A stretch of DNA of 21,680 nucleotides from Acetobacteraceae bacterium (GTDB lineage Bacteria; Pseudomonadota; Alphaproteobacteria; Acetobacterales; Acetobacteraceae): the NCBI GenBank assembly GCA_947476855.1, contig CANJSR010000021.1, forward strand, positions 1 through 21,680. The letters are read 5' to 3'. Under the pieces are notes generated by a model. It was not told the origin of the DNA. It made no database searches and worked only from the letters and a program-made list of their open reading frames with translations. Both the position numbers and the translations under genes were made by a program. Shown in pieces: positions 396 to 20,717 of the stretch; within the stretch, counting starts at the first letter, position 1, and each line of letters opens with the position of its first letter.

Positions 396-901
396 GCCGC
401 GTAACACCCGACCTCGCCGCCGGACTCATCGATGGCGCCTACTGGATGCGCCGGCCCGGCCCCAATGCCGAGGTCGTTGTCGTCTACACGGGGGCCATCG
501 CACCCGAGGCCATCCGGGCGGCGGGGTTGATGGCGGAAGACCGGCGCGACGTCGGCCTGCTGGCGGTCACGTCGGCCGACCGGCTGAACGCCGGATGGAC
601 CGCCGCCGCAAAGGCCCGCGAGAACGGCCTGCCACACGCCCTGAGCCACATCGAGCGCATGCTGGCCGAAGTGCCGCGCGAATGCGCGCTCGTCACCGTG
701 GTGGACGGCCACCCGGCCGCACTGGGTTGGCTCGGCGCGGTTGCGGGACACCGTACCCGCGCGCTGGGCGTCGAGCATTTCGGGCAGACGGGGTCGCTTG
801 CCGATCTCTACCGCCACTTCGGGATCGACGCGCAGGCCATCGTCAGGGCGGCGCAGGCCATGACCGCCGGACCGCCCATGCGCCATCTGCGGTATGCGTG
901 A
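377..901 (+). pseudogene. C-terminal fragment of AceE-like pyruvate dehydrogenase E1
   Basis: The product from about position 377 (first ATG near the homology boundary) reads like the last 170 or so residues of a homodimeric E1 component of pyruvate dehydrogenase or a related transketolase-fold enzyme. Recognisable pieces are LIDGAYWMRRPGPNAEV, VVYTGAIAPEAI, a LLAVTSADRLNAGW stretch, VDGHPAALGWLGAVAG and GVEHFGQTGSLADLYRHFG. These belong to the transketolase C-terminal domain. Full-length members are roughly 800-900 residues, and the thiamine-diphosphate and pyrimidine-binding domains are absent. The frame is open back to position 50, but those first 100 or so residues are Arg/Gly/Ala-rich, match no part of E1, and are antisense to the helicase-like fragment. 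I take it as a decayed gene end left by a rearrangement. Expression as a stand-alone protein is unlikely. Confidence 0.6.
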
Positions 902-1052
902 GGCTGGATGCGCCAGGTGCCAAACGAAGCCCCTGTTCATCACACCAGAAGTATCGTATGTTGAATGACAATCCCACTATTTGGAACAAAATTCGCGACG
1001 AGCGGGAGTTCCACGCGACGGCTGCGTGCCCGGCAGAAAGTGTGACTGGCAG
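902..1052 (+). promoter_or_regulatory. Promoter region of the hydantoinase operon
   Basis: This 151-bp gap separates the AceE fragment from hyuA. It is visibly more AT-rich in its middle (about 935-995) than the flanking genes, as expected for a promoter. It carries the candidate IclR operator described at 972-986. No -10/-35 pair is clear enough to place. The ribosome binding site is weak: only a purine run (agaaag) about 12 bases before the chosen ATG at 1053. Confidence 0.5.
972..986. promoter_or_regulatory. Candidate IclR operator upstream of hyuA
   Basis: TCCCACTATTTGGAA is an imperfect inverted repeat (arms TCCCA and TGGAA, 5-bp spacer) ending 66 bp before the hyuA start. It matches the site at 14659-14673 at 13 of 15 positions. 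Inverted repeats of about 15 bp with TTCCA/TGGAA-type arms are known for IclR-family regulators. A weak second copy, TATCGTATGTTGAAT, starts exactly 20 bp upstream at 952. Assignment to the local regulator (11283-12101) is inference. Confidence 0.5.
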
Positions 1053-3095
1053 ATGAATGACCTAAAACCACGGTACCGTCTCGGCGTCGACATCGGCGGC
1101 ACCTTCACCGATGTGCTGGTCTTCAACGATGTCTCAGGGGCGCTGACGTCACTCAAGGTTCCGTCCAACCGGCAGGACCCCGCGCAGGCCATCGTCACCG
1201 GCCTCGAGGCATTACGAGACAGGCATGGTGTCGATCCCGGCATGATCGGATACTTCTCCCATGGCACCACGCTCGGCGTGAACACGCTTCTCGAGCGCGA
1301 CGGAGCGGAGGTTGGTCTCCTCGTCACCAAGGGTTTCAGGGACATTCTGGAACTTCGGCGGCTGCGGTTGCCTCAGGCGAACAATCTCTATGCTCCCCGG
1401 CCGCGGGCGCTGGCGCCGCGCAGGCGGGTTGCCGAGATCAACGAAAGACTCGGTTACGACGGCAGTGTCATCGTGCCGGTCGCACGGGAGGATGTCGTGG
1501 CGAAGGCCCGCGCGCTGCTCGACGGGGGAGCCGACAACATCGCGATCTGCTTTCTGCATTCCTATCGCAACGGAGATCACGAGTCCCAAGCCAAGCAGTG
1601 GATCCTCGAAGAGTTTCCTGGCGCCTATGTCATCGCATCTGCCGAGTTATGGCCACAGCAGCGTGAGTACGAGCGCGCGCTCGTTGGCGTCATCAACGGA
1701 TACATTGGCGCCCGGATGCGCCGCTATTTCGAGACCCTGAAGGAGAGGGCGGAGAATTCCGGTGTCGTCACACGGATATTCTCCACCAAGTCGAATGGCG
1801 GGGTGATGAGCATCGAGGCCGCAGGCGAGCGCCCTGTCGAGACGCTTCTCTCCGGTCCGGCGTCAGGCGTCATGGGTGCCGCATTCATTGGTCAGTTGAT
1901 CGGCGATACGCGCCTCCTGACACTCGACATGGGCGGCACCTCTGTCGATATGGCGCTCATCAACGGCGAAGTACCCTATTCGAACGAGAACACCGTCGGC
2001 GATTTCACTGTGGTGCTGCCCGCCGTCGATGTCTCTGCTATCGGCGCCGGCGGCGGCTCGATCGCATGGCTCGATGCCGAAGGCGTGCTGAAGGTCGGTC
2101 CGCGTTCAGCCGGCGCCAATCCAGGTCCCGCCTGCTATGGCCGCGGCGGCACCGAGCCGACCGTAACCGATGCCTATGCCGTTCTCGGCATCATGACCTC
2201 TATCCTGGGCGGAGAGATGAAGCTGCAATTCGACAAGGCACGCGCGGCACTGGCCACGATTGGCACAAGACTGGGCCTGACGGTCGAACAGGCTGCGGAC
2301 GCGGTGCTGCAGGTCGCCACCGCGAACATCTATGCGGAGGCCGTGCCGCAACTGGCGCGCCGTGGCGTCGATGCCAAGGAGTTCTCTTTGCTCTGCTATG
2401 GCGCGGCAGGGCCCACCCACTCCTTCATGCTGGCGCGCGAACTCAACCTCCGCCGGGTCATCGTGCCGCCGATGCCCGGGCTGCTGTGCGCCCTGGGCTG
2501 CCTCGTCGCCGATCTGCGCGCCGATTTCGTGCGCAGCCTCTGGCACGATTCCCGCTCGATGTCCGATGACCAGATCAATGCGACCTTTGCGCAGTTCACC
2601 ACCGAGGCGGAGAGCTGGCTTGCGGCCCAGAAAGTCGACGTCGTGGAACGGCGGATCGTGCGATCGATCGACATGTGCTACCAGGGGCAGTCGTTCGAGC
2701 TGAACGTGATACTCCCTGACGGGCCGCTCACCATTGCCCAGATCGAAACCCTCTTTCATGATCACTATGAGAGAGTCTACGGCTATGCCGACCGCGCCAG
2801 TTCGCTCCGCATTCTCGAGGCACGGCTGCAGATCGTCGGGTCCACCAGGAAGCCGGATTTCTCCCGCCTGCGCCCGTTCGTTGGCGTTGGCAGCGGAGCG
2901 CCCGTCACACGCCGCATCTACGAAAATGGCAGAAGCGGCGAAGCGGCGGTCTACAACCGCGCGTCGCTCGAGCCCGGCTTCCGTTTCGAAGGCCCCGCCA
3001 TCGTCGAGCAATACGACACCACGGTCTACGTGCCCGCAGGGTTCAGTGCGACCGTCGACCCATGGTACAACATCATCGGGGAACGAATGCCATGA
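1053..3095 (+). CDS. hyuA: Hydantoinase/oxoprolinase family protein, subunit A
   Basis: ATP-dependent cyclic amide hydrolase subunit of 680 residues, the usual size for HyuA-type proteins. The N-terminal Hydant_A_N and following hydantoinase_A domains are clear: the phosphate-binding loop GVDIGGTFTDVLVF near residues 10-25, GTTLGVNTLLERDGAEVGLL around 70-90, the second actin-like nucleotide loop TLDMGGTSVDMAL near 290-305, and the ALGCLVADLRADFVRSL stretch near 480-500. The frame is open from 981, but the ATG at 1053 places the conserved YRLGVDIGG loop at the normal distance from the N-terminus and leaves the operator upstream. The stop overlaps the start of the B subunit in ATGA, indicating translational coupling. 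Known relatives hydrolyse hydantoins, N-methylhydantoin, 5-oxoproline or carboxylate acetone and acetophenone; the sequence does not say which applies. Confidence 0.9.
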   Translation: MNDLKPRYRLGVDIGGTFTDVLVFNDVSGALTSLKVPSNRQDPAQAIVTGLEALRDRHGVDPGMIGYFSHGTTLGVNTLLERDGAEVGLLVTKGFRDILELRRLRLPQANNLYAPRPRALAPRRRVAEINERLGYDGSVIVPVAREDVVAKARALLDGGADNIAICFLHSYRNGDHESQAKQWILEEFPGAYVIASAELWPQQREYERALVGVINGYIGARMRRYFETLKERAENSGVVTRIFSTKSNGGVMSIEAAGERPVETLLSGPASGVMGAAFIGQLIGDTRLLTLDMGGTSVDMALINGEVPYSNENTVGDFTVVLPAVDVSAIGAGGGSIAWLDAEGVLKVGPRSAGANPGPACYGRGGTEPTVTDAYAVLGIMTSILGGEMKLQFDKARAALATIGTRLGLTVEQAADAVLQVATANIYAEAVPQLARRGVDAKEFSLLCYGAAGPTHSFMLARELNLRRVIVPPMPGLLCALGCLVADLRADFVRSLWHDSRSMSDDQINATFAQFTTEAESWLAAQKVDVVERRIVRSIDMCYQGQSFELNVILPDGPLTIAQIETLFHDHYERVYGYADRASSLRILEARLQIVGSTRKPDFSRLRPFVGVGSGAPVTRRIYENGRSGEAAVYNRASLEPGFRFEGPAIVEQYDTTVYVPAGFSATVDPWYNIIGERMP

Positions 3096-5113
3096 TCGCT
3101 GACAAGATCGGGTTGGAGATCATGTCCAATCGCTTTCAGGCGATCGTCGACGAGATGGCGCAGGCCCTGTTCCGCACCGCGCACACGGTCTTCATCAAGG
3201 AGACGCAGGACTACGGCGCAGCGCTTGTAAGCCTCAAGGGCGAGGTGTTCGCGGCCTCCCGGCGCTACGGTGTGCTGATGATGGTCGGCAAGCCCATGGA
3301 CGATGCCATACGGGCCATGGGCGAGGATGTGCGCGAGGGAGACATCTTCATCACCAACGACCCCGAGGCCACCCGGGGAATGGCGACCCACCTGTCCGAT
3401 GTCTATCTCTGGACACCGGTCGTGCACGACGGCGCAGTCATCTGCTATCTGTGGACCTTCGTTCACATGACCGATGTGGGCGGCAGGGTTTCGGGTTCGA
3501 TCGCCCCGTCAAGCTATGAACTGGTGCAGGAAGGAATCCGCATTCCGCCGCAGAAGCTCTTCAGCGAAGGCGTCCTGAACGAGACGTTCCTGAAGACGTT
3601 TCTCGTCAATACCCGCAGCAGCCCGCAGAACTGGGGAGACATGAAGGCATGTATTGCCGCCCTGAACACGGCGATGCGGCGCATGCGCGAGATCATCGCG
3701 CGGTTCGGCGCGCCTTCCGTCAGCAAGTCGATCGATGACGTGCTGAATTACGCCGAGGCCCAGTCGCGCCGGGTGATTTCCTCCGTTCCCGAGGGCGTCT
3801 ACCGCTTCTCGGACTTCATCGAGGGTGACGTCGCGGGCCTCGGCCTCCTGCGCATCAACCTCGCGCTGACGGTGAAGGACGGTGAGTTCCACATGGACTT
3901 CGCGGGTACCGCACCCGAGGTGCGGGCCGCCCTCAACCTGCCAAGCTATTCCAAGAACGGCCACTGGATGCTGGTGACCGGCATCGTCAACTGGCTGTGC
4001 ACCCGCGAGCCTTCGATCGCCTACAACGCGGGTCTCGTTCGTCCTCTCAGGATCTCGATCCCGCGCGGCACCATCATCAACCCGGAGCCGGGGGCAGCCT
4101 GCGGCGCGCGCTATTCCACCTCCCACAAGGTCTGTGACGTGATCATCGGCGCCCTGGCACAGGCGGTTCCGGACCAGCTTCCGGCGACCGACTCCGGCCA
4201 GGGCGGCATTCTGATGGTGGCGATGCCCGACCCCGAAACATCGGAGACCCGCGTATCCGTCATTCAACCCGTGGTGGGCGGCTCCGGCGGGCGCCCGATG
4301 GCGGACGGAGTCGACGGCACGATGGTGATCCTGAACTTCCTCAAGAACGTCCCGACCGAACTGCTGGAGCGGGAAATGCCGGAAGTGCTGATCAGGCGCT
4401 ACGGCCTGCGCGAGGATTCGGGCGGCCCGGGCAAGTTCCGCGGCGGCACGGGTTCGATCATCGAGTTCGAAACGCATTCCCCGTTCTCGACAGTGACGGC
4501 GCGCAACCTCGAGCGCTACCTCTTTCCGCCGGCGGGCCGCCAGGGTGGCCGTCCCGGCACCACGGGCTATACACTGCTCAATCCGGGCACGCCCGGCGAG
4601 AAGGACATCGGGAAGATCGACATCCTGCATTTGGGCATCGGAGACGTGATCCGGATGGGCACCCAGGGCGGGGGCGGCTACGGCGATCCCCTCGAGCGGC
4701 CGGCGGAGCAGGTCCTGTCGGACGTCCTCGACGGCTACGTCTGGCGCAGCAGCGCCGAGGCGGACTACGGCGTGGTGATATCCGCCGACGGTGTGCTGGA
4801 TGAGGATGCAACGCGCGCACTGCGCGAGCGGATGCGTGCGGCCCGCGGCGGCAGGCCGCTCAAGGCCATCGACTACGGACCCGTCCGCGACGCCTACAAT
4901 GCGCTGTGGCCCTCCGAACTGCATGACGCGATCAGCGCGCAGATCATCGGACTGCCGCGGGTCCAGCGCCAGACCGGTCATCAGGCCCTCTATGCGGAGA
5001 TCGGCCGCAGGCTCGAAGCCGGCGAGAAGGTACTGCCCGGAGAGGTGCCGATGATCTACAAGGAATTGCGCGAACACAAGCTCATGTCCCGGCGGCTTGC
5101 GAGGCCGCTCTGA
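3092..5113 (+). CDS. hyuB: Hydantoinase B/oxoprolinase family protein, subunit B
   Basis: A 673-residue partner of the preceding subunit. The hydantoinase_B domain fills about residues 5-530: the opening IGLEIMSNRFQAIVDEM, then FIKETQDYGAALVS, GDIFITNDPEATRG, HLSDVYLWTPV, a FVHMTDVGGRVSGS block with histidine and aspartate, SSPQNWGDMKACIAALNTA, and near the end of the domain TQGGGGYGDPLERP. The start at 3092 overlaps the hyuA stop by 4 bp; an upstream in-frame ATG at 3062 lies inside hyuA and is less likely. A and B subunits form the active hydrolase or carboxylase complex in this family. The last 140 or so residues beyond the glycine-rich motif are less conserved. The segment NDPEATRGMATHLSDV replaces the commoner NDP-GGTH-PD pattern, so substrate preference may differ from that of classic 5-oxoprolinases. 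Confidence 0.9.
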   Translation: MIADKIGLEIMSNRFQAIVDEMAQALFRTAHTVFIKETQDYGAALVSLKGEVFAASRRYGVLMMVGKPMDDAIRAMGEDVREGDIFITNDPEATRGMATHLSDVYLWTPVVHDGAVICYLWTFVHMTDVGGRVSGSIAPSSYELVQEGIRIPPQKLFSEGVLNETFLKTFLVNTRSSPQNWGDMKACIAALNTAMRRMREIIARFGAPSVSKSIDDVLNYAEAQSRRVISSVPEGVYRFSDFIEGDVAGLGLLRINLALTVKDGEFHMDFAGTAPEVRAALNLPSYSKNGHWMLVTGIVNWLCTREPSIAYNAGLVRPLRISIPRGTIINPEPGAACGARYSTSHKVCDVIIGALAQAVPDQLPATDSGQGGILMVAMPDPETSETRVSVIQPVVGGSGGRPMADGVDGTMVILNFLKNVPTELLEREMPEVLIRRYGLREDSGGPGKFRGGTGSIIEFETHSPFSTVTARNLERYLFPPAGRQGGRPGTTGYTLLNPGTPGEKDIGKIDILHLGIGDVIRMGTQGGGGYGDPLERPAEQVLSDVLDGYVWRSSAEADYGVVISADGVLDEDATRALRERMRAARGGRPLKAIDYGPVRDAYNALWPSELHDAISAQIIGLPRVQRQTGHQALYAEIGRRLEAGEKVLPGEVPMIYKELREHKLMSRRLARPL

Positions 5114-5159
5114 CCATGCGCGCGCTGACAGCCTCATTCTGCTGGGCGGAGGACAGGAC

Positions 5160-6023
5160 ATGAACGACTGGCTGATCGAAACCGACGAACTCGCGCGCAT
5201 CATGGCGGAGGAACCGGGGAAGGACCGCGTGGTGGTCGACTGCTCGTGGTATCTGCCGGAGGCGGGCAAGCACGCGATCGACGATTTCCGGCGCGGCCAC
5301 ATTCCGGGTGCGCGTTTCGTCGACCTGCAGGACATCTCCGATCCGCAGTCTCCCTACATCAACATGCTGCCCGGCGCCGAACAGTTCTCCGCCGTCATCG
5401 GCGGGCTTGGCATCGGCAACGAAACCCAGGTGATCGTCTATGACTCGGGCTACGTTTCGGCGCGGCTCTGGTGGATGTTCCGCACCTTCGGTCACGACAA
5501 CGTCCGGATCCTGAACGGTGGCTTTCGCAAGTGGAAGGCCGAGGGACGGCCGGTGGAAACGGGCGAACCGTCGGCGCCCGCGCAGCGGCCGTTCAAGGCC
5601 GTGCTGCAGTCGGGCCGAGTCGCCTCTTTCGAGGACGTGCGCAAGGTGATCGAGACGGGAGGAGCGGCAATCGTCGACGCGCGCACCGCGGCGCGCTTTC
5701 AGGGTGCGGAAGGTTCAGGCTATCCCGGCGTGGCGTCGGGCGCCATGCCGGGCGCCGTCAACGTGCCATGGAGCAGCTTTTTCGACCCGGCCAGCAACTA
5801 CGCCTTCGTTTCGCCCGAGAAAGCGGCGGAGATCTTTGGTCGGGCGGGGGTCGATGTGGCAGGACCGATCATCACCACCTGCGGTTCGGGCGTCACGGCC
5901 GCTCTGCTCGGGTTCATGGCTGAACGGCTCGGCAACCATGACTGGCTGCTCTATGACGGATCCTGGCACGAATGGGGCCAGCGTCCCGATACGCCGAAGG
6001 TCATTCTCTCGCCACCTCCATGA
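5160..6023 (+). CDS. sseA: Sulfurtransferase, 3-mercaptopyruvate type (tandem rhodanese)
   Basis: A 287-residue tandem-rhodanese protein that moves sulfane sulfur from 3-mercaptopyruvate or thiosulfate to an acceptor through a cysteine persulfide. The N-terminal inactive rhodanese domain shows VVVDCSWYLPEAG and FRRGHIPGARFVDL; the linker is NGGFRKWKAEGRP; the C-terminal domain has AMPGAVNVPW and the active loop TTCGSGVTAALLGF with the nucleophile at Cys241. The CGSGVTA loop is typical of mercaptopyruvate sulfurtransferases; thiosulfate-type rhodaneses usually have CRKGVT. I chose the ATG at 5160 because a GGCGGAGGAC ribosome site sits just before it; the earlier in-frame codon at 5097 lies inside hyuB. 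The stop overlaps the next start in ATGA. Its place between hydantoinase and an amino-acid-oxidase-like enzyme suggests handling of sulfur released from the substrate. Confidence 0.88.
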   Translation: MNDWLIETDELARIMAEEPGKDRVVVDCSWYLPEAGKHAIDDFRRGHIPGARFVDLQDISDPQSPYINMLPGAEQFSAVIGGLGIGNETQVIVYDSGYVSARLWWMFRTFGHDNVRILNGGFRKWKAEGRPVETGEPSAPAQRPFKAVLQSGRVASFEDVRKVIETGGAAIVDARTAARFQGAEGSGYPGVASGAMPGAVNVPWSSFFDPASNYAFVSPEKAAEIFGRAGVDVAGPIITTCGSGVTAALLGFMAERLGNHDWLLYDGSWHEWGQRPDTPKVILSPPP

Positions 6024-7345
6024 GCGCCGTTAGATCATCTTCAGGTTCGGTGCCACCCGGGCTGGTCGGGGTGGCGGACGATGGCAAGGTGCCGGCGAGC
6101 GCCGATGCCGTGGTCATCGGCGGCGGCATCGTGGGTGTATCCGCCGTCTGGCATCTGGCCCAGCGGGGACTGAAGGCGGTGCTGATCGACAAGGGCGCCA
6201 TCGGCGGGGAGCAATCCGGCCGGAACTGGGGCTGGTGCCGCAACACGACGCGCGATCCGGCAGAGATCTCCCTGATGTTCCAGTCGATGCGCGACTGGCG
6301 CGACCCTCAGGTGTTCGGCGCACTCGATACGGGCTTTCGCACCACGGGCATCGCCTATTTCACCTATCCCGACACGGAAGCCGAGCAGACGCGATGGCTC
6401 GAACAGGTGCGCGGCGCCGGCCTCGACAGCCGGATGATCTCCCGCCGGGAACTCGACAGCCTACTCCCGGGGAATGACGGCAATGCGATGGGCGCGCTGT
6501 ACACCCCGAGCGATGGCTGTGCCGAACCCGAATGCGCAGCGCCTGCCATTGCCACCGATGCCCGCCGCCTTGGCGCCGGCATCCACACGAACTGCGCCGC
6601 GCGGGGAATCGAGACGAGCGCCGGGCAGCTCAGCGCCGTCGTGACCGAGCGCGGCGCGATCCGCACATCTCTCGCCATTTTGGCCGGCGGGATCTGGTCG
6701 AGGCTGTTTCTTGGCAGCCTTGGCATCGGCTTCCCCCAGATCAAGGTCCTGGGATCCGTATCCGCCCACACCTCGCTCACCGGAGGCCCGGAGATCTCCG
6801 TCGCCGCGAAGCGCTATGGCTGGCGAAAGCGGCGGGACGGCGGCTACATCCTATCGCGCGCCAATGCCACCTATGTCGACGTCGTGCCGGACAGCTTCCG
6901 CCTGATGGGCAGCTATCTGCCGCTGTTGACCAGAAGCATTCGCGAGCTGCGGTTCCGGATCGGGCGGCGGTTCATCACCGAAGCCATGATGCCGCGGCAC
7001 TGGGCACTCGATGCGCCATCTCCTTTCGAATCCGTCCGGATCGCCGATCCCGAGCCCGTCGGCAGCGTGTTGAGCGGCGCGAAGCGCGCAGTCGATGCCG
7101 AGTTTCCCGTCTTCGCGCAAGGCCGCGTGGACAGGGAATGGGGAGGCTTCATCGATGTGACGCCTGACGCGCTGCCCGCAATCGGCCCGCTCAGTGCGGT
7201 CCCGGGGCTGGTGCTGGCATCGGGCTTCTCCGGGCATGGCTTTGGTCTCGGACCGGGCGGGGGCCGCCTCGCGGCGGACATTGCGATGTCTCTCACCCCC
7301 GGCGTCGATCCTTCGCCCTTCGCACCGCGACGTTTCGGCATGTGA
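6020..7345 (+). CDS. FAD-dependent oxidoreductase, DAO (D-amino acid oxidase) family
   Basis: A 441-residue flavoprotein of the DAO fold, expected to oxidise a secondary or primary amine or amino acid. The FAD-binding beta-alpha-beta unit is DAVVIGGGIVGVSAVWHLAQ (about residues 30-50), followed by LIDKGAIGGEQSGRNWGWCR, a segment found in a DAO subgroup annotated as glycine/D-amino-acid oxidases or gamma-glutamylputrescine-oxidase-like. The C-terminal FAD loop is PAIGPLSAVPGLVLASGFSG followed by HGFGLGPGGGRLAADI. The start is fixed by the 4-bp ATGA overlap with the sulfurtransferase stop; an earlier in-frame ATG at 5972 would overlap much more. The first 28 residues are low-complexity and precede the Rossmann fold. 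Substrate unknown; the operon suggests it acts on the hydrolysed ring product or a later N-substituted intermediate. Confidence 0.85.
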   Translation: MSAVRSSSGSVPPGLVGVADDGKVPASADAVVIGGGIVGVSAVWHLAQRGLKAVLIDKGAIGGEQSGRNWGWCRNTTRDPAEISLMFQSMRDWRDPQVFGALDTGFRTTGIAYFTYPDTEAEQTRWLEQVRGAGLDSRMISRRELDSLLPGNDGNAMGALYTPSDGCAEPECAAPAIATDARRLGAGIHTNCAARGIETSAGQLSAVVTERGAIRTSLAILAGGIWSRLFLGSLGIGFPQIKVLGSVSAHTSLTGGPEISVAAKRYGWRKRRDGGYILSRANATYVDVVPDSFRLMGSYLPLLTRSIRELRFRIGRRFITEAMMPRHWALDAPSPFESVRIADPEPVGSVLSGAKRAVDAEFPVFAQGRVDREWGGFIDVTPDALPAIGPLSAVPGLVLASGFSGHGFGLGPGGGRLAADIAMSLTPGVDPSPFAPRRFGM

Positions 7346-7356
7346 AGGACGGGACG

Positions 7357-8082
7357 GTGATACAGGGTTTCGATCATACGATCTTCCACGTGGCGGAGCC
7401 TGAGGCCTTCGATCACGTCTGCAAGGCCTTCGAGGCCGCTGGCTTCCTCATCACCGATCGCGCCGACGAGGACCGCGACACAGCACCTGTCCTGCAGCGG
7501 CTGGTTTGCCTTGCCGACGGGACCTATGTCGAGATCCTGACCGTCCGCGATGCGGAGGCTCGGCGGCGCCATCGCCTTGCGCAGCACATGAACGGACGTT
7601 CCGGCTGGGCCGACTTCACGCTCCTGACCGGCCGCCTAACGGACGTCATCGCCGTCCAGTCGAACGCCGGGTTCGCCGTGAACGGGCCCGTGACGCATGC
7701 GAGGCGCCTGTCCGATGGCCGGACATGGCGTGTGTCACTGGCGCTTCCGGGCATCGGCTTCGGCCACCCTTCCCTGCCCTTCTTCCTGCAGGACGAGACG
7801 GGCCGCGAACTCAGGATCCCGGCAGGCCGGACCGCGCATCCGAACGGCGCCACCGGAACCGCCGGCATCACGATCTCCACGCCCGACCTCAGTACAGCGC
7901 GCGCCCATTACCGCCCCCTCTTCGGTGAGCCGCAGCAACGGGGCGGTGTTCTGCGCTATGTCGTCGGGAACGGGTGCTGGATCGATCTCCGCGAGGGGCC
8001 TGCTGCCATTGAGGACGTCGTGCTGTCAGGCGTCACCGGCTTCCGGCGTGAGCTCGCTGCACTGCAGCTGCGCTCCGGCTGA
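7357..8082 (+). CDS. VOC (glyoxalase-fold) family protein
   Basis: A 241-residue protein with two vicinal-oxygen-chelate-type halves. The first half opens with GFDHTIFHVAEPEAFDHVC, followed by FEAAGFLITDR and GTYVEILTVRD; the second has TAGITISTPDLSTARAHYRP and GVLRYVVGNGCWIDLREG. The H in FDHTIFHV and the E in VEILTV sit where many such proteins hold metal ligands. It resembles the Glyoxalase_3-type group seen beside catabolic genes, but no specific reaction can be assigned; isomerase, epimerase or dioxygenase-like roles are possible. The GTG at 7357 follows GAAGGACGGGAC, a good ribosome site; a GTG at 7342, overlapping the previous stop, is an alternative that adds five residues. It is the last gene of the operon, ending 5 bp from the convergent PLP enzyme. 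Confidence 0.75.
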   Translation: MIQGFDHTIFHVAEPEAFDHVCKAFEAAGFLITDRADEDRDTAPVLQRLVCLADGTYVEILTVRDAEARRRHRLAQHMNGRSGWADFTLLTGRLTDVIAVQSNAGFAVNGPVTHARRLSDGRTWRVSLALPGIGFGHPSLPFFLQDETGRELRIPAGRTAHPNGATGTAGITISTPDLSTARAHYRPLFGEPQQRGGVLRYVVGNGCWIDLREGPAAIEDVVLSGVTGFRRELAALQLRSG

Positions 8083-8087
8083 ACGGG

Positions 8088-9290
8088 TCAAAGCAGATCG
8101 AGCGCCTGCTGCAGATCCTCGAGGATGTCATCCACGTTCTCAAGGCCGACCGAGAGGCGCAGCAGGCCATCGGAGATGCCGTGCTTGCGGCGTTCCTCCT
8201 CGCCATAGATCGCGTGGGTCATCGAGGCGGGGTGCTGGATCAGCGTCTCGCAGTCGCCGAGGCTCACGGCGCGCGAAATGATCGTGAGCTTGTTCATCAA
8301 CGCCATGCCCAGGGCCATGCCGCCGTCGAGCTCGAACGAAATCAGCCCGCCAAAACCGGACATCTGCCGCTTTGCCAGCTCGTGACCGGCAAAACTCTCC
8401 AGTCCAGGATAGGAGACCGACATCACATTGCGATGGCCTTCGAGCATGCGGGCAACGGCAAGTGCTGAAACCGAATGCCGCTCCATGCGCAGTTCCAGCG
8501 TCTTGAGCCCGCGCAGCAGCAGAAAGCAGTTCATGGGCGACAGGGTTGCACCCGTGACCCAGCGTAAGCCGATCTGCCTGACCTTGGTAAGCACGGCTGC
8601 AGGCCCGACAACGAGACCGGCAAGGACGTCGCCATGCCCGCCGATGTACTTTGTGGCCGAATGCACCACGATGTCCGCACCCAGAGAGAGCGGCCTCTGC
8701 AAGGCGGGCGTGGCGAAGGTATTGTCAACAACTACGAGAGCCCCGGCCCCATGGGCGATGCCGGCGATCCGCGCGATATCGACTATGCGAAGGTTCGGAT
8801 TGGCGGGCGTCTCGAAGAACACGAGTTTGGTCACCGGACTGATCTGCGCCTGCAGCGTCTCCGGCCGGGCGAAGTCGGCGAGTTTCACCTTGATGCCCCA
8901 CCGCGGCAGGGCCTGCGTGAGATAGGCGAAGGTGTTTCCGTAAAGCGTGTTGTCAATGACGATCTCGTCGCCGGAATCGAGGAGAGAGAGCATGACGCTC
9001 GAGGTCGCGGCCATGCCGGAGCCAAGCGCGATCGCCGTTTCGCCACCTTCGAGACTGGCGATCCGCTCCTCGAGAATGGTCTGGGTGGGGTTTCGCGTGC
9101 GGCCATAGATGTATCCGGCACGTTCCCCGCGGAACATCTCCGATCCCGCCTCTGCGGTCTCGAACGTATAGGTCGAGGTCATGTAGATCGGCGGATTGAG
9201 GGCGCCCTTCTCGCTCGCCGGGTCATATCCAAGGTGAATGGCACGGGTCGAGAACCCCAGCCGGCGATTTGATTTCGGATCGTCGCTCAT
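8088..9290 (-). CDS. Cys/Met metabolism PLP-dependent enzyme (methionine gamma-lyase-like)
   Basis: A 400-residue fold-type I PLP enzyme of the cystathionine gamma-synthase/gamma-lyase/methionine gamma-lyase/O-acetylhomoserine sulfhydrylase family. Visible elements: NPPIYMTSTYTF near the N-terminus, YIYGRTRNPT with Tyr62 and Arg64 for the neighbouring subunit's PLP phosphate, GSGMAATSSV, DNTLYGNTF with the ring-stacking Tyr117, VVVDNTFATP with Asp189, and SATKYIGGHGDV with the PLP lysine Lys214. Overall order is closest to methionine gamma-lyases, but Asn119 stands where the classic enzyme has its signature cysteine. The start at 9290 follows a GGGAG ribosome site; upstream in-frame codons look non-coding. 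It faces the PYROXD2-like gene across a shared regulatory region, so it likely belongs to the same regulon. Likely reaction: C-S or C-gamma elimination/replacement on an S-substituted amino acid. Confidence 0.85.
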   Translation of the reverse strand: MSDDPKSNRRLGFSTRAIHLGYDPASEKGALNPPIYMTSTYTFETAEAGSEMFRGERAGYIYGRTRNPTQTILEERIASLEGGETAIALGSGMAATSSVMLSLLDSGDEIVIDNTLYGNTFAYLTQALPRWGIKVKLADFARPETLQAQISPVTKLVFFETPANPNLRIVDIARIAGIAHGAGALVVVDNTFATPALQRPLSLGADIVVHSATKYIGGHGDVLAGLVVGPAAVLTKVRQIGLRWVTGATLSPMNCFLLLRGLKTLELRMERHSVSALAVARMLEGHRNVMSVSYPGLESFAGHELAKRQMSGFGGLISFELDGGMALGMALMNKLTIISRAVSLGDCETLIQHPASMTHAIYGEEERRKHGISDGLLRLSVGLENVDDILEDLQQALDLL

Positions 9291-9445
9291 CTTGCACTCC
9301 CGGTCGTCATGCCCATTTCGCCGCATCATGGTCGAAAGCCGGCGCGGCGCCGCAAGCGACCAGCGGTCCCTCAATCGATCAGTGCACAGTACCCTTGCCG
9401 ATCGGACGACGATGCCAAAAAAATCTAGCGCTCAACACCTGCATG

Positions 9446-9460
9446 TGTCAATATACGGTA
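9446..9460. repeat. Weaker upstream copy of the operator
   Basis: TGTCAATATACGGTA matches the site starting 20 bp later (9466) at 11 of 15 positions, including the shared core CAATATAC. The 20-bp period is close to two helical turns, as would suit two dimers binding side by side on one face of the DNA. It could instead be a chance near-repeat of the AT-rich core. Confidence 0.4.
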
Positions 9461-9465
9461 TCTAA

Positions 9466-9480
9466 TTCCAATATACAGAA
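9466..9480. promoter_or_regulatory. Candidate IclR operator in the PLP enzyme/PYROXD2 divergent region
   Basis: TTCCAATATACAGAA (arms TTCCA and CAGAA, spacer 5 bp) lies 121 bp before the start of the plus-strand flavoprotein gene and 175 bp before the minus-strand PLP enzyme gene, so it could control both. It matches the reverse complement of the iclR-upstream site at 13 of 15 positions and the gcvT-side site at 12 of 15. Confidence 0.55.
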
Positions 9481-9601
9481 CAACTAAGGCGATGACGTTC
9501 AGCCCGTGAGGGCAAGTGCCCTGCCCGGCCGCCTTGTCCGGCTGCTCTTGAGACGGGTGGGCCGCGCCGATTGACAGGCAAAGGATGAACTCGGCGGGAA
9601 C

Positions 9602-11185
9602 ATGGCCGCGACGGAACACTACGATGGCATCATCATCGGCGGCGGCCACAACGGGCTGGTCTGCGGTGCATACCTTGCGCGGTCGGGAAAGAAGATCCTC
9701 GTTCTCGAGCGCCGCGAGATGCTGGGCGGCGCATCGGTCACCGAACAAATTTGGCCGGGCTACAGGATAAACACGGCCGCACATATCCTGAGCCTGATGC
9801 AGCCCAAGATCGTTCTCGATCTTGAACTCCAGAAATTCGGCTATGAGGTCGTTCCCGTACCCCCGGGCGTGCATTTCGTGGAGGGTGCGGGGCCGGTGGT
9901 CCTGTGGAAGGAACAGGACCGGCTCTGTGCCGAACTCGCGCGCTTCTCGAAGCGCGATGCCGAGACCTACCCGAAATTCCAGGCCCATCTCGCACGCATC
10001 GCCCCGATCTTCCGGCGGATGCTGTGGGAGATTCCGCTCGACCCGTCCGATCTCAACCCCGGAAACCTTGCCCGCCTCGCCGGCTTCGCGTGGCGCAACA
10101 GGGCTGCCCTTCGCGCCTTTCACGATGTGACCGATCTCGTCTCCATGAGCGTTTCCGATTACGTCGGGCGGTGGTTCGACAGCGACGAGGTGAAGGTCAT
10201 CGCCGGCTACTACCCGGCTGGTGCTGCCGGGCAGACGATGTCGATCCACACGCCGGGCACGGCCTTTCTGCTGCTGCGCAATCACCTGCGCGACGGGCCC
10301 GATCCCGCCGGTGGCACCGGCCTCGCGCGGGGCGGTATGGGCATGATATCTGAGGCCATCGCGGCATCCGGCGCGCGCTTCGGACTCGAAACGCGGACAG
10401 GCGCGGAGGTGAGCGAGGTGATCGTCGAGAAGGGCCGCGCGACCGGCGTCAGGCTCGCCGGAGCCGGCATCATCCGCGCCCGCGCCGTCATCTCCAATGC
10501 CCCTCTCCAGCATCTCTTCGCCGATCTCGTGCCGCAGTCGGCGGCGCCGGAAGCCTATCGCCGCTCGGCGGCGGGCATTCACGGCACGGTGACGAACTTC
10601 AAGATCCATCTTGCGGTCGACAGTCCCATTCCCTTCGCCGGACTCAAGGAAGCGGGCTACACCTCGGGCTATCCAGTGCAGATCACCCTGGCGCCGAGCC
10701 TCGCCTACGTCGAGCGCGCCTATACCGACATGCGGAGCGGCCGGCTGTCGGAGCACCCCTACATGACCGTGCAGACCCCGACCGTGGCCGACAGCACACT
10801 GGCGCCGCCGGGCAAACACATCATCAGCATCTATGGAGGCCATATTCCGGCAGGCCATGAGGACGAGGCTGCCCGCGAACGGCTCTTCGAGCGCGTGCTG
10901 GACACGATCGCCCTGCATGCGGCGGGATTCGACCGCCGGTGGATTCATCGCCAGATCATGCTGCCGGTCGACTATGCGACGACGTTCCGCCTGCCGGGCG
11001 GAAGCCCGCACCACGGCGACCTGACGCCCGATCAGCTGTTCTTCCGCCGTCCGGTGCGGGGATACGCCGACTACACCACCCCTGTCCCCGGCCTGTTCCT
11101 TTGTGGCGCCTCCGCGCATCCGGGCGGCGGCGTCACGGGTGTTCCGGGCCACAATGCGGCGCGCGTCGTGAAGCGCTACCTCTAG
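9602..11185 (+). CDS. PYROXD2/phytoene desaturase-like FAD-dependent oxidoreductase
   Basis: A 527-residue NAD(P)/FAD-dependent flavoprotein of the amine-oxidase superfamily. The N-terminal dinucleotide fold is YDGIIIGGGHNGLVCGAYLA (residues 7-26), with LVLERREMLGGASVTE continuing the FAD contact. The middle has SIHTPGTAFLLL and GGTGLARGGMGMISEAI, and the C-terminus the family hallmark LFLCGASAHPGGGVTGVPGH. This set identifies the PYROXD2 group, often misannotated as phytoene desaturase; no carotenoid genes are present, so carotenoid synthesis is unlikely. Related bacterial proteins are commonly found near amino-acid or polyamine catabolic genes, but the reaction is not established. The ATG at 9602 follows a modest GGCGGGAA ribosome site and gives a normal N-terminus. 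The next gene, iclR, starts 97 bp later behind its own operator. Confidence 0.85.
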   Translation: MAATEHYDGIIIGGGHNGLVCGAYLARSGKKILVLERREMLGGASVTEQIWPGYRINTAAHILSLMQPKIVLDLELQKFGYEVVPVPPGVHFVEGAGPVVLWKEQDRLCAELARFSKRDAETYPKFQAHLARIAPIFRRMLWEIPLDPSDLNPGNLARLAGFAWRNRAALRAFHDVTDLVSMSVSDYVGRWFDSDEVKVIAGYYPAGAAGQTMSIHTPGTAFLLLRNHLRDGPDPAGGTGLARGGMGMISEAIAASGARFGLETRTGAEVSEVIVEKGRATGVRLAGAGIIRARAVISNAPLQHLFADLVPQSAAPEAYRRSAAGIHGTVTNFKIHLAVDSPIPFAGLKEAGYTSGYPVQITLAPSLAYVERAYTDMRSGRLSEHPYMTVQTPTVADSTLAPPGKHIISIYGGHIPAGHEDEAARERLFERVLDTIALHAAGFDRRWIHRQIMLPVDYATTFRLPGGSPHHGDLTPDQLFFRRPVRGYADYTTPVPGLFLCGASAHPGGGVTGVPGHNAARVVKRYL

Positions 11186-11213
11186 GACCGGCTCCTGCTG
11201 CCGCGGCCACCTG

Positions 11214-11228
11214 TTCTGAATGTTGGAA
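11214..11228. promoter_or_regulatory. Candidate IclR operator upstream of iclR (autoregulation)
   Basis: TTCTGAATGTTGGAA is the same inverted-repeat pattern in the opposite orientation; its reverse complement TTCCAACATTCAGAA matches the site at 9466 at 13 of 15 positions. It ends 54 bp before the iclR start, a position suiting autorepression. No second copy at 20-bp spacing is seen here. A further TTCCA half-site lies at 11257-11261 without a matching right arm. Confidence 0.5.
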
Positions 11229-11282
11229 AACCGTGGTCGATGGTCTAAGCATCGTGTTCCACAGCAATCCGAAGCATGGGAT

Positions 11283-12101
11283 ATGGAAACAACCATCGTA
11301 AAGGGATTGAAGGTTCTCGAGACCCTGGTGCAGTCCGGCGGACCGCGCTCCCTGACCGAGATTGCGCTTCAGTGCGGCATCAGCAAGAGCAACGCGCACC
11401 GCGTTCTCGGCACTCTCGAGGCGTGCGGTTACGTGAGCAGGCCTGCGGGATCGCGAAACTATGAGCTCACACTCCGCCTGTGGGAACTGGGCCAGCGGGT
11501 GTTCTCGCGTTTCGACATCCGCTCCGTGGCCATGCCGCATCTCCGCACTCTCGCCTCGGAAACGGGCGAGACCGTGCACCTGTCGGTGCTCGACAACAAC
11601 CAGACGCTCTATATCGACAAGGTCGACAGCACCCATGCGGTGCGCGCCTATGTCAACATCGGGGACCGTTCGCCGGCCTATTGTTCCGCCACGGGAAAGG
11701 CGATGCTCGCCCACGCGCCGGACGAAATCGTGGACGCGGTCAGCGCGAACATGCAGCGCTTCACCCGCCACACCGTTTCTTCCCCCGCCATGTTGCGCCG
11801 GCAGCTCGCAAACATTCGCGAGCAGGGCTATTCGATGACGAATGGCGAGTGGCGCGAGGGCGTCCTGGGTTTCGGCCGCGCGATACTCAGCCCCTCGGCC
11901 CGGGCCATTGCCGCCATCGGAGTGGCCGGCCCTGAGGAGCGGATGCGGCAGGGCGGCGTGGACAGGTATGTGTCCGTCTTGCTTGACGCAGGCGAAGCCA
12001 TCGAAGGCGCACTGGGTTTTCGCGATGCACCGATCGGGCTGCAAGTCGATCCGGCCGCAACACCGAAGGCCGCACCCAGGCGGCAGAAGCCGAAGGCCTG
12101 A
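11283..12101 (+). CDS. IclR-family transcriptional regulator
   Basis: A 272-residue regulator. The N-terminal winged helix-turn-helix covers about residues 5-65: VKGLKVLETLVQSGGPRSLT, IALQCGISKSNAHRVLGTLE (recognition helix) and CGYVSRPAGSRNYELTLRLW. The IclR effector-binding domain follows, with VHLSVLDNNQTLYIDKVDS, the conserved RSPAYCSATGKAMLA near 130-145, and a MTNGEWREGVLGFGRAIL block. Typical members act as dimers or tetramers on inverted repeats and respond to a small catabolite. The frame is open to 11220, but that ATG lies within the candidate operator; the ATG at 11283 puts the HTH at the usual distance. It is most likely the local regulator of the island because similar operators precede its own gene and the surrounding transcription units. 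Whether it activates or represses cannot be read from the sequence. Confidence 0.9.
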   Translation: METTIVKGLKVLETLVQSGGPRSLTEIALQCGISKSNAHRVLGTLEACGYVSRPAGSRNYELTLRLWELGQRVFSRFDIRSVAMPHLRTLASETGETVHLSVLDNNQTLYIDKVDSTHAVRAYVNIGDRSPAYCSATGKAMLAHAPDEIVDAVSANMQRFTRHTVSSPAMLRRQLANIREQGYSMTNGEWREGVLGFGRAILSPSARAIAAIGVAGPEERMRQGGVDRYVSVLLDAGEAIEGALGFRDAPIGLQVDPAATPKAAPRRQKPKA

Positions 12102-12149
12102 GACGCTCATGACGGAGCCATGGCGCGCGGCGGTTCGCCTGGAGGACAG

Positions 12150-13349
12150 ATGACGGAGACAAAGAACAGCTTTGACTACATCGTCATCGGACTGGGTGGC
12201 CTCGGCAGCGCGGCCGCCTACTGGCTCTCGCGGCAGGCAGGGCAAGAGGTTCTGGGGATCGAGCGCTTCGAACTGGGACATGGCCGCGGCGAGTCCGAGG
12301 ATCATTCACGCATCATCCGGCTGACCTACCACAACACCCCGTACGTGCGCCTTGCGCAGGCCTCCTACCGCATCTGGGCGGAGATGGAGGAGGATGCCGG
12401 AGAGCAGTTCGTGTTGAAAACCGGTGAACTGAACTTCTGGCCGGATACGACAACCCTGTCGGAGACGAGCTACAACAGCAGCATGGCGGCATGTGGCGTG
12501 CCGTTCGAAACGCTGGATGCCTCCGGCATTCACCGGCGCTTTCCACAGTTCCAGTTCGCGGACGACATGCATGCCGTCTATCAGCCGGAGGGCGGTCTCG
12601 TTGCCGCCTCCAGGGCAAACGCCGCCCACCGCCGCATGGCGCAGCGCAACGGTGCCATGCTGCTTGGAAACATGCCGGTATCCGCCATCCGCCAGCGTGG
12701 CTCAGCATACCGCGTCACGGCTGGCGGACGGGAATTCGAATGCGGCAAGCTCGTCATCGCGTCAGGCCCATGGACCAATGACGTGCTCCGGCATCTCGGC
12801 TTCCACCTGCCGCTGCAGGTGACCCAAGAGCAGGTGACCTATTTCGCCACTCCGCATCCCGAGGAGTTCTCGCCCGGGCGGTTTCCTGTCTGGATCTGGA
12901 TGATCCTCGACAATTTCTATGGCTTTCCGGTCTATGGAGCCAATGGCGTGAAGGCGGCCAGGGACCGCTTCGCGCCGGTCGATCCCGACAACCGCAGCTT
13001 CGTTGCCGATGCGCGGAACGAGCAGGACGTGAGTGCCTTCGTCAAACGCAACATCCCGCGGGCGCATGGTCCTGTCCTTTATAGCAAGACCTGTCTGCTC
13101 ACCCACACGCCGGACACCGACTTCGTGCTCGACACCGTCCCGGGGCATCCCGGCGTGGCCTGTGTCGTGGGCGCCGCGCACGCATTCAAGTTTGCCTCGG
13201 TGATCGGCAGGACGTTGAGCGAGTTGCTGACGACTGGCAAAGCATCGACCGACATCTCGCTCTTCCACTTTGACAGGCCGGCGATGCGGCCGGAGTCCAC
13301 ACCGTCATTCCAGATCGACGGACTTGGAGAATACCAGACGGCCACCTGA
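12150..13349 (+). CDS. Monomeric sarcosine oxidase/N-methyltryptophan oxidase-like enzyme
   Basis: A 399-residue flavoenzyme expected to oxidise an N-methyl amino acid with oxygen, giving formaldehyde, H2O2 and the demethylated product. FAD-binding FDYIVIGLGGLGSAAAYWLS begins at residue 8; EDHSRIIRLTY near 50-60 corresponds to the His-x-x-Arg-Ile-Ile-Arg segment of monomeric sarcosine oxidases; GPWTNDVL near 206 is the second flavin contact. In SKTCLLTHTPDTDFVLD the cysteine is residue 315, the same number and motif as the cysteine that covalently holds FAD in bacterial monomeric sarcosine oxidase. The ATG at 12150 follows GGAGGAC, a strong ribosome site, and lies 48 bp after iclR, so it can be co-transcribed. 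It ends 8 bp from the convergent GcvT-family gene. The exact N-methyl substrate is open (sarcosine, N-methyltryptophan, pipecolate or another). Confidence 0.88.
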   Translation: MTETKNSFDYIVIGLGGLGSAAAYWLSRQAGQEVLGIERFELGHGRGESEDHSRIIRLTYHNTPYVRLAQASYRIWAEMEEDAGEQFVLKTGELNFWPDTTTLSETSYNSSMAACGVPFETLDASGIHRRFPQFQFADDMHAVYQPEGGLVAASRANAAHRRMAQRNGAMLLGNMPVSAIRQRGSAYRVTAGGREFECGKLVIASGPWTNDVLRHLGFHLPLQVTQEQVTYFATPHPEEFSPGRFPVWIWMILDNFYGFPVYGANGVKAARDRFAPVDPDNRSFVADARNEQDVSAFVKRNIPRAHGPVLYSKTCLLTHTPDTDFVLDTVPGHPGVACVVGAAHAFKFASVIGRTLSELLTTGKASTDISLFHFDRPAMRPESTPSFQIDGLGEYQTAT

Positions 13350-13357
13350 CGTCGCGG

Positions 13358-14572
13358 TCACGCTCTTGCGAGTTTTCGTTCCGGATCAAGGAACGGCATG
13401 TCAACGACCGTCGCCGCGGCGGCGCGCCCGCCGAGATCGACGTCCACCCGGGCGCCGGACACTGCGTTCTCCGTGTCGAGCCAGCAGATTGCGAGGGGGC
13501 AATCGAGGGCGGGGGACCCGGTCGCGGAGGTGATGATCCCCCGCCCTGCGCCGTTCACAGTCACCCTGTCCCCCATCAGCGGAACCTCTCGGCCCTCGAG
13601 CCGGAGGCCTGCAAGTTTCTGCCTGTAAGTACGGGCTTTGGCGGATTGCAGCGCCTTCTGGGCGCGGTATGGCGCCTTGGTATCCGATATCATCCAGCCG
13701 AGCCCGATCTCGACCGGCGTATGCTGCCAGTCGAAGTCCTGGCCGAAGTTCAGGATCGCCGCCTCGATGCGCCTGATGCCGAGTGTCCTGCTGCCGCAGA
13801 GGGCGCCGCCAGCCTTCCTGACGGCATCCCAGAGGCCCGCGAAGAATTTACCCCCCCGCGCAACGTCGACATAGATGTCGTAGCCGAGTTCGGCGGTATA
13901 GCCGGTTCGCGTGATGGTGACAGGCACGCCGCAGACCTCGGCACTCAGCAGGCCGAAGAACGGCACGGGCGCCAGGTCCGCCGAACAGACCTCCTGCAGG
14001 ATGTCCCGCGAGCGGGGCCCCTGCAGACTCGCCACGTGCAGGCGGTCGTTGAAGCTCTCGATGCGCACGTCCCGGGAAACGGAATGGGCATAGAGCCACT
14101 CCTCCGAACTGCCGGGTCCTCCAATCCACCAGAAGGAGTTCCTGTCAAAGCGGACGAGGATGCCATCCTCGACGATTCCGCCATGATCATGGAGGAGCAC
14201 GGAGTAGTAGCTGTGCCCGTCCTTCATCTTGCGCACATCGCGCGGCATCAGGCTGTCGAGCAGCGCCTCGGCATCCGGACCGGTGACGGCGATGACCTCC
14301 TCGCCGGTGACGTCGAGAAGACCCGCCGTCCGCCTGATCGCCCAGTACTCCTCCACAGGGTCGGTGAAGAAATCCGGCTTGAGATAAGTATTGTGCAACT
14401 TGAAGCTGGAGGCGATCTCTCCCACGATCGGGAAAAACGCCGTCCTCTTCAACCCGCCGCGGGAACGTATGGGCGTGGAAACATAGGGCGGCTGGCCGGT
14501 GATGCTGGCGAATTCGGTGCGGATGAAGCGATCGTCCCGCCTGCTATTCATGGCCTGCACAGTCGTCTCCAT
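13358..14572 (-). CDS. GcvT-family folate-binding aminomethyltransferase-like protein
   Basis: A 404-residue protein of the glycine-cleavage T fold (GCV_T followed by GCV_T_C). Visible parts: EYWAIRRTAGLLDVTGEEVI, VTGPDAEALLDSLMPRDV, YSVLLHDHGGIVEDGILV with the conserved Asp after GGI, VASLQGPRSRDIL, TRTGYTAELGYDIYV, GIRRIEAAILNFGQDF and TPVEIGLGWMI. These match tetrahydrofolate-dependent C1-transfer proteins, including the C-terminal halves of dimethylglycine and sarcosine dehydrogenases and some demethylases. It lacks any flavin domain, so it could accept the methylene group produced by the neighbouring N-methyl oxidase, or act as a separate THF-dependent demethylase. The N-terminal 30-60 residues are longer than in GcvT proper. 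Starts at 14572 (ATG) and 14551 (ATG) are both possible; neither has a strong ribosome site. The frame extends to a TTG at 14644, which seems less likely. Confidence 0.82.
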   Translation of the reverse strand: METTVQAMNSRRDDRFIRTEFASITGQPPYVSTPIRSRGGLKRTAFFPIVGEIASSFKLHNTYLKPDFFTDPVEEYWAIRRTAGLLDVTGEEVIAVTGPDAEALLDSLMPRDVRKMKDGHSYYSVLLHDHGGIVEDGILVRFDRNSFWWIGGPGSSEEWLYAHSVSRDVRIESFNDRLHVASLQGPRSRDILQEVCSADLAPVPFFGLLSAEVCGVPVTITRTGYTAELGYDIYVDVARGGKFFAGLWDAVRKAGGALCGSRTLGIRRIEAAILNFGQDFDWQHTPVEIGLGWMISDTKAPYRAQKALQSAKARTYRQKLAGLRLEGREVPLMGDRVTVNGAGRGIITSATGSPALDCPLAICWLDTENAVSGARVDVDLGGRAAAATVVDMPFLDPERKLARA

Positions 14573-14638
14573 CGGATCACTGAGGGCGTGGCAGCCCGCC
14601 TTGCTGACAAAACAAGGCTTGCATCGACCCTGATTTGA

Positions 14639-14653
14639 TGTCAAGATTTATGA
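14639..14653. repeat. Weaker upstream copy of the operator
   Basis: TGTCAAGATTTATGA begins exactly 20 bp before the better site at 14659 and matches it at 9 of 15 positions. It shares its first six bases TGTCAA, at the same 20-bp offset, with the upstream copy at 9446. Confidence 0.35.
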
Positions 14654-14658
14654 CAGCT

Positions 14659-14673
14659 TTCCACTATTTAGAA
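14659..14673. promoter_or_regulatory. Candidate IclR operator between gcvT-like and SDR genes
   Basis: TTCCACTATTTAGAA (arms TTCCA and TAGAA, 5-bp spacer) lies 87 bp before the minus-strand start at 14572 and 160 bp before the SDR start at 14834. It matches the hyuA site at 13 of 15 positions, including an identical CCACTATTT core. Confidence 0.55.
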
Positions 14674-14833
14674 AAATTAAAGCCTTGTCCGACGCGCCTC
14701 CGGCGCTCCTCGGCGGCGACCAGGAACCGCCTCATCCTGCGGCCGAACGCGAGGCAGTCCTGGGCTGACGTTGTTCATGAGTATGGAAAGGCGCCGGAGA
14801 ACGCGCCGCTCTCTCCGGCTGGCAAGGAGTGAA

Positions 14834-15661: not shown

Positions 15662-15667
15662 CCGCCG

Positions 15668-17200: not shown

Positions 17201-17224
17201 ACCCAAAACTCAGGAGGACCGAAG

Positions 17225-19997: not shown

Positions 19998-20009
19998 TGC
20001 ATCGTCTCC

Positions 20010-20714: not shown

Positions 20715-20717
20715 GGG

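Follow-up and report, generated by a model that had tools for sequence, protein, structure and literature searches.

Gene content of the island

The window, by which we mean the whole 21,680-nucleotide (21.7-kb) stretch analysed here, carries an island of catabolic genes together with one regulator gene. A plus-strand operon (1053-8082) encodes HyuA and HyuB, both assigned to hydantoinase/oxoprolinase by Pfam and NCBIfam, followed by a rhodanese, a DAO FAD oxidoreductase and a glyoxalase-like protein; the rhodanese resembles 3-mercaptopyruvate sulfurtransferase at a score below the cut-off of that model. Beside this operon, on the minus strand, lies megL (8088-9290), whose product passes the TIGR01328 cut-off for methionine gamma-lyase and had been called a PLP enzyme in the first-pass annotation of this DNA. 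It diverges from a plus-strand gene, here pyroxd, for a PYROXD2-like FAD oxidoreductase (9602-11185; Pfam Amino_oxidase, with CrtO/CrtI-type NCBIfam models below cut-off). The regulator gene iclR (11283-12101) follows on the plus strand, with a gene for an N-methyl-L-tryptophan oxidase-like FAD enzyme downstream of it (12150-13349, plus strand; above the NF008425 cut-off). A minus-strand gene for a GcvT-like aminomethyltransferase of the folate-dependent demethylase family (13358-14572) and divergent plus-strand genes for an SDR, a GMC oxidoreductase and an ABC solute-binding protein (SBP_bac_5; 14834-18817) complete the island. Beyond it are phage-tail-like genes (19464-21443, minus strand; DUF4376 and phage tail repeat). 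Near the window's start, an ORF at 50-901 (plus strand) contains a weak transketolase C-terminal-like domain, and a 62% identical stretch occurs near the island in locus L003 (5540-6025).

The regulator, a protein of 272 aa, contains the HTH_IclR and IclR_C domains of the IclR family (PF09339 at 52.3 bits and PF01614 at 146.6 bits, each exceeding its cut-off). Of the window's 18 ORFs that were compared with Pfam, no other encodes a regulator. Its four closest relatives among the best 120 of 1019 homologues are 83-93% identical to it. When the window protein was aligned with 31 of those best 120, the recognition-helix residues were invariant in all 32 sequences, and the helix core KSN-[AVT]-HR was present in 12 of 12 sequences, the window's included.

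Scanning contigs with this 32-sequence alignment, we retained nine loci out of 57 candidate stretches, among them loci of Mesorhizobium sp. 65-26, Paracoccus sp. IB05, Mesorhizobium ephedrae and Roseovarius aestuarii; L008 and L009 contain only part of iclR. Left out of the locus analysis were pattern matches (L011-L018), duplicates (L019 and L048), hyuA paralogues (L038-L047) and model-search loci (L049-L078). A plasmid collection added an island on pAMI1 of Paracoccus aminophilus JCM 7686, a plasmid of which the strain could be cured (PMC3925955); the terms 'IclR' and 'methionine gamma' do not occur in the main text of the genome paper for that species (PMC3925955). At E <= 1e-70, 4 genomes out of 397 in one order had the regulator, the genome of the query locus being one of the 4, as did 1 out of 390 in a second order, that one having been found before, and relatives on viral contigs were found in 0 of 51 stretches. 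Gene content is largely kept across the islands; order and orientation vary. Two loci (L001 13613-14761 and L002 13652-14860) have a second, divergent GcvT-like gene (47-48% identical) before the SDR gene, and the window has none.

Four operator-like sites share one near-palindrome

The first-pass annotation had reported a 15-bp inverted repeat at four promoter regions. Re-reading the window, we found the positions and letters of all four to be correct, and the observation of four shared near-palindromic sites is confirmed. The hyuA site, TCCCACTATTTGGAA (972-986, plus strand), is centred 74 bp 5' of the hyuA ATG at 1053; TTCCAATATACAGAA (9466-9480, plus strand) lies between the divergent megL and pyroxd genes; TTCCAACATTCAGAA (11214-11228, minus strand) is centred 62 bp 5' of the iclR ATG; and TTCCACTATTTAGAA (14659-14673, plus strand) lies between the divergent gcvT-like and SDR genes. 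At the catabolic genes, the distance from site to ATG ranges from 74 to 184 bp. The sites at 972 and 14659 have the same letter at 13 of 15 positions, the best pairwise agreement that had been claimed, and the proposed form TTCCA-N5-YRGAA is exact in three of the four, whereas the site at 972 departs from it by one base. The four also stand where they had been said to stand, and together they cover all transcription units of the island, taking the units as gene order and orientation suggest them. A 15-mer identical to the site at 14659 occurs at position 3113 of locus L008.

A symmetrised weight matrix built from the four sites matches just these four at 9 bits or more in the 21.7 kb. With at most one mismatch, TTCCA-N5-YRGAA is enriched in the window (13 matches, 2.64 expected; at most 7 in 100 shuffles), but the short consensus alone is loose: two of the four sites enter this count twice, once per strand, and the remaining matches are intragenic. 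With no preset motif, the top common 15-mer of the four intergenic regions reached 37 of 45 letters, against a maximum of 35 in 200 shuffles.

The sites are conserved at orthologous promoters

In a held-out test, a matrix built from the window only was applied to 43 orthologous promoter regions of other genomes, and 28 were significant at p <= 0.05 and 15 at p <= 0.01, counts that are not independent events because of shared ancestry. By comparison, none of 34 control regions (300-365 bases, before genes within operons) reached p <= 0.05. Significant sites were found at 10 of 11 iclR promoters (one of them only at p 0.0499), 7 of 11 hyuA promoters, 7 of 11 gcvT/SDR regions and 4 of 10 megL/pyroxd regions. 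Each promoter region was compared with 500 shuffles and each control region with 300; regions shorter than 40 bases and genes below 50% identity (60% for SDR) were excluded, and regions were trimmed to 350 bp. Because of this trimming, the megL/pyroxd sites of two genomes (G001 and G002) were missed; the tandem model described below recovers both. With the same matrix, genome G100 had no significant region among four and G378 one among three (together 1 of 7). The regulators of these two genomes are only about 50% identical, and G100 carries a strong site of 19.2 bits before a solute-binding protein gene.

The reverse test used a matrix refined on 61 non-window regions, of which 45 had a match with divergent genes counted twice, giving 33 distinct sites. 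Applied to the window, it ranked the four sites 1 to 4, at 17.0, 15.6, 15.2 and 14.5 bits, with the site at 972 in third place; rank 5, at 6.6 bits, was position 9446, the partner of the 9466 site. It is the final training set alone that is free of the window, and not the starting point, because the refinement was seeded with the window's matrix.

Two other searches gave negative results. A blind count of exact inverted 4-mer dyads over the 61 regions missed TTCC-N7-GGAA, because the symmetry of most sites is imperfect, with the form TTYC...GGAA. None of 12 homologous pyroxd/megL loci away from the regulator had a site of at least 10 bits (best 9.7), a weak control because these homologues are distant (pyroxd protein 41-48%, megL DNA about 66-68% identical). 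Six of the 12 come from genomes without the regulator (E <= 1e-70), one (L096) is a paralogue from a genome that has it, G001, and the remaining five are plasmid megL loci with about 9 kb covered in each.

Catabolic promoters carry tandem sites 20 bp apart

Beyond what the first-pass annotation described, second copies of the motif lie exactly 20 bp from three of the four sites, one of them weak. The partner of the 972 site is 20 bp upstream (952-966, plus strand; 3.3 bits, p 0.0011 against flanking offsets). That of the 9466 site spans 9446-9460 (plus strand; p 0.0006), and its left six letters read TTGACA on the minus strand. The 14659 site has a weak partner at 14639-14653 (plus strand; -3.1 bits, p 0.007), and the iclR site at 11214 has none at 20 bp on either side (p 0.09).

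This spacing is general across the islands. When 37 distinct sites (33 from other genomes and 4 from the window) were scored for partners at offsets from 8 up to 70 bp, 20 bp was the one offset to stand out, with a mean of -9.0 bits versus -18.3 (s.d. 1.45). A partner is present at 26 of 26 sites outside iclR promoters versus 5 of 11 at iclR promoters (Fisher p 2e-4), counts that include the window's three tandem sites and its one iclR site; the threshold, at about the 99% level of the flanks, was picked after seeing the null, and with two flanks per site about 2% would pass by chance. The two halves of the partner are enriched separately, the inner in 20 of 26 and the outer in 21 of 26 at p <= 0.05. 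A 41-position model of 23 tandem operators, none of them from the window, recovers the window's three tandem operators, at hyuA (950-988, E 8e-5), megL/pyroxd (9444-9482, E 5e-6) and gcvT/SDR (14638-14675, E 3e-5), and finds nothing else below E 0.6 in the rest of the window.

Second copies coincide with likely -35 boxes

On the minus strand, TTGACA at 9446-9451 is the likely -35 box of the megL promoter, and CTAGAT (9423-9428), 17 bp past it, the likely -10 element; the hexamer has the same offset in six of seven 'mid'-group regions elsewhere. The gcvT-like gene has an equivalent layout on the same strand, with a likely -35 box TTGACA at 14639-14644 and, again after 17 bp, a likely -10 element CAAGCC at 14616-14621. 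Across the 37 sites, TTGACA occupies the exact partner position in 15, and elsewhere it occurs once in 12,302 positions around the sites. With each pair oriented so that the main site comes first, TTGACA closes the partner at six of seven sites of the megL/pyroxd group, six of eight of the gcvT/SDR group, one of ten iclR-group sites (in L003, where iclR diverges from megL) and two of the window's four, and at none of eight hyuA/solA sites. One member of the gcvT/SDR group, at L001 7360, actually lies in that locus's megL-pyroxd interval, before an OYE-type gene; in L001 an OYE-type gene stands beside megL.

In 14 of the 15 cases, GC[ACT]AG starts exactly 16 bp after TTGACA, the exception being L003 with GATAG. 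TTGACA-N17-C[ACT]AG is thus likely to be a promoter towards megL or gcvT. The -35 overlap suggests repression by occlusion at megL and gcvT, the two genes for which we make this argument and in whose directions promoters were sought. Part of the partner conservation at these promoters could be owed to the -35 box itself.

Specificity across whole genomes

Searching 11 whole genomes with the tandem model, we obtained 41 matches at E <= 5, of which 20 were at E <= 0.01; all 20 of these lie at island loci, 17 being training sites by coordinates and 3 not. In 8 of the 11 genomes, the model scored 150 of 174 to 491 first-look candidates. A match that is not a training site (E 1.7e-4) lies downstream of iclR in G003 (L003 11371-11385). 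Many equally good sites at unrelated genes, a prospect that the first-pass annotation had itself raised, are thus lacking for the tandem form, whereas the 15-bp consensus is common. As a specific marker, the short pattern TTCCANNNNNYRGAA was rejected: it has 13 to 76 matches per genome in eight genomes (palindromes counted twice), and in three of the eight it is about no commoner than a reversed control.

Weaker tandem-model matches fall outside the islands of other genomes. In G402, a match (E 0.014) precedes an ABC transporter gene about 160-170 kb from the island, and the solute-binding protein of that transporter is 56-59% identical to the island-adjacent ones in L005, L006 and L023. At this distance in G402, two operator-like sites (L079 4947-5069) precede an ABC peptide-type transporter operon beside biotin synthesis-like genes (names by eye). 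Tandem operator-like sites precede a TRAP transporter in G005 (L080 5063-5097, E 0.024), about 3 kb from another iclR-family gene; this cluster has its own iclR-family and hyuA-like genes. A match in G378 (L086, E 0.14) is beside yet another iclR-family gene. Mesorhizobium sp. 65-26 (G001) has a tandem pair of 13.1 and 12.1 bits, 20 bp apart (L081 4482-4516; tandem model E 0.68 genome-wide), between purU and a gene like the Blh dioxygenase part (below the model cut-off). Another site in G001 precedes a GMC gene (E 0.97). Both are on the island contig, 4-6 kb past the island locus, and the 15-bp matrix gives them 12 to 15 bits. Other off-island matches occur in G004 (C67, C94), G006 (C10) and G100 (C2). 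In G100, a tandem pair of 11.4 and 17.4 bits, 20 bp apart, stands directly before an OYE-type flavin oxidoreductase gene (L084 3058-3092).

The regulon had been described as local. For the 20 of 20 tandem matches at E <= 0.01 this holds, but because of the weaker off-island matches in other genomes we would call it mostly, perhaps not strictly, local. Two of those matches are near other iclR-family genes, and we take the short consensus to be partly common to the IclR family.

A model for regulation of the island

We consider it very probable that the sites are operators of the island's own IclR, arranged as tandem pairs at catabolic promoters and as a single site at iclR, and that they serve repression. 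Sequence comparison supports this IclR as the binder, the assignment that the first-pass annotation had proposed. Each catabolic promoter region carries two 15-bp near-palindromes with centres exactly 20 bp apart, close to two turns of the helix, which would let two dimers or a single tetramer bind on the same side of the DNA. With one site in its promoter, iclR would be autoregulated more weakly. Where transcription runs leftward, towards megL and the gcvT-like gene, the likely -35 hexamer TTGACA falls within the second copy, so that bound regulator would block RNA polymerase, and an inducer (the pathway substrate or an intermediate) would release the regulator. Repression, tetramer binding and the inducer are the parts of this model that we infer.

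It is rather doubtful, though far from negligible, that the same IclR binds mainly as an activator, its tandem sites upstream recruiting polymerase. IclR-family members act as activators or repressors, PcaU and PobR being activators; the main site is upstream of the TTGACA box, and the site-to-ATG distances at the catabolic genes would suit activation too. The coincidence of the second copy with the -35 hexamer at megL and gcvT fits blocking better, however, and TTGACA is already a consensus -35. We also infer the link between the sites and the window IclR, which leaves room for binding by another, unlinked regulator that happens to control the island. Such a regulator is unlikely: iclR itself is preceded by a significant site in 10 of 11 other genomes, the motif class and the 20-nt tandem spacing are of the IclR-family type, and two off-island matches (G005 L080 and G378 L086) are near other iclR-family genes. 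Least probable by far is that the repeats reflect chance, conserved core-promoter letters or common descent of intergenic DNA, since, although orthologous intergenic DNA shares ancestry and a likely -35 box makes up some of the second copy at megL and gcvT, the motif recurs at four promoter regions of one genome beyond the shuffle maximum, persists where gene order is rearranged (L003, L007 and L010) and has partner halves that are enriched separately, and the window-free matrix, the lone 20-bp offset and the held-out promoter test contradict such an origin.

The proposed repression by the island's own IclR raises the matter of what is being controlled, a pathway that is poorly known. Tentatively, the operator set may define a regulon for catabolism of an N-methylated, sulfur-containing lactam or hydantoin-like compound, a regulon so far undescribed. 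The ATP-dependent hydantoinase would open the ring, the FAD oxidases and the GcvT-like protein would pass N-methyl groups to folate, and MegL and the sulfurtransferase would release sulfur; PurU (formyl-folate hydrolysis) and the Blh-like persulfide dioxygenase of Mesorhizobium sp. 65-26 could supply the steps needed next. Degradation of ergothioneine or a thiohydantoin is one idea for the island pathway. Literature searches in limited wordings returned no paper joining hydantoinase, methionine gamma-lyase, IclR and gene cluster, nor one joining IclR family, binding motif, hydantoinase and regulon.

We envision several uses for the operator. It delimits computationally the set of genes that form a unit in a rare catabolic island; it is searchable and gives a direct binding test; and it could be used as a reporter for finding the inducer and hence the substrate. 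The contrast between iclR, with its single site, and the catabolic genes, with tandem ones, provides a simple, testable rule for graded autoregulation. The tandem spacing and the -35 overlap are what the present analysis adds to the first-pass annotation.

Comparison with known IclR systems

The earlier statement that IclR-family proteins bind inverted repeats of this kind accords with the survey of 181 IclR-family orthologous groups by Suvorova and Gelfand (2021, PMC8222616), whose text describes both the motif and the tandem spacing seen here. The group 1 motif given there, GKTYCRYW3-4RYGRAMC, has an odd-length palindrome TTYCR-N5-YGRAA, and tandem sites with centres 18-22 nt apart are listed for 94 orthologous groups. 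Island sites share this palindrome, with half-site frequencies of T 0.99, T 0.87, Y 0.85, C 0.83 and R 0.93 (symmetrised, from 45 matches with divergent regions counted twice), and their spacing of exactly 20 is within that range. The survey divides group 1 by outer letters into WTT-11-AAW and GTT-11-AAC; the island's consensus is G...C at tandem sites, with A/T frequent (left G/A/T, right C/T/A), and these mixed outer letters point clearly to neither subgroup. Residue-base correlations published there, aligned by eye, fit in part: Arg at the position that avoids even-length sites fits, and the preference of Lys for G/C at outer positions is not evident in the island sites.

Among individual regulators, GenR of Corynebacterium glutamicum, with ATTCC-N7(5)-GGAAT in the same survey, has the same half-sites TTCC...GGAA with 7 bp between them, a likeness by consensus alone; it differs in controlling the use of 3-hydroxybenzoate and gentisate, and in an actinobacterium. 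TtgV of Pseudomonas putida (PDB 2XRO) is an IclR-family protein like the island regulator, to which it is a distant sequence match (2xrn/2xro, E 8.5e-17), and differs in controlling efflux pumps; the survey cites it for tetramer binding in the family (PMC8222616). Judged by their sequences, the predicted operators fit the published group 1 class of IclR sites, and their arrangement is a common one, ordinary as a kind.
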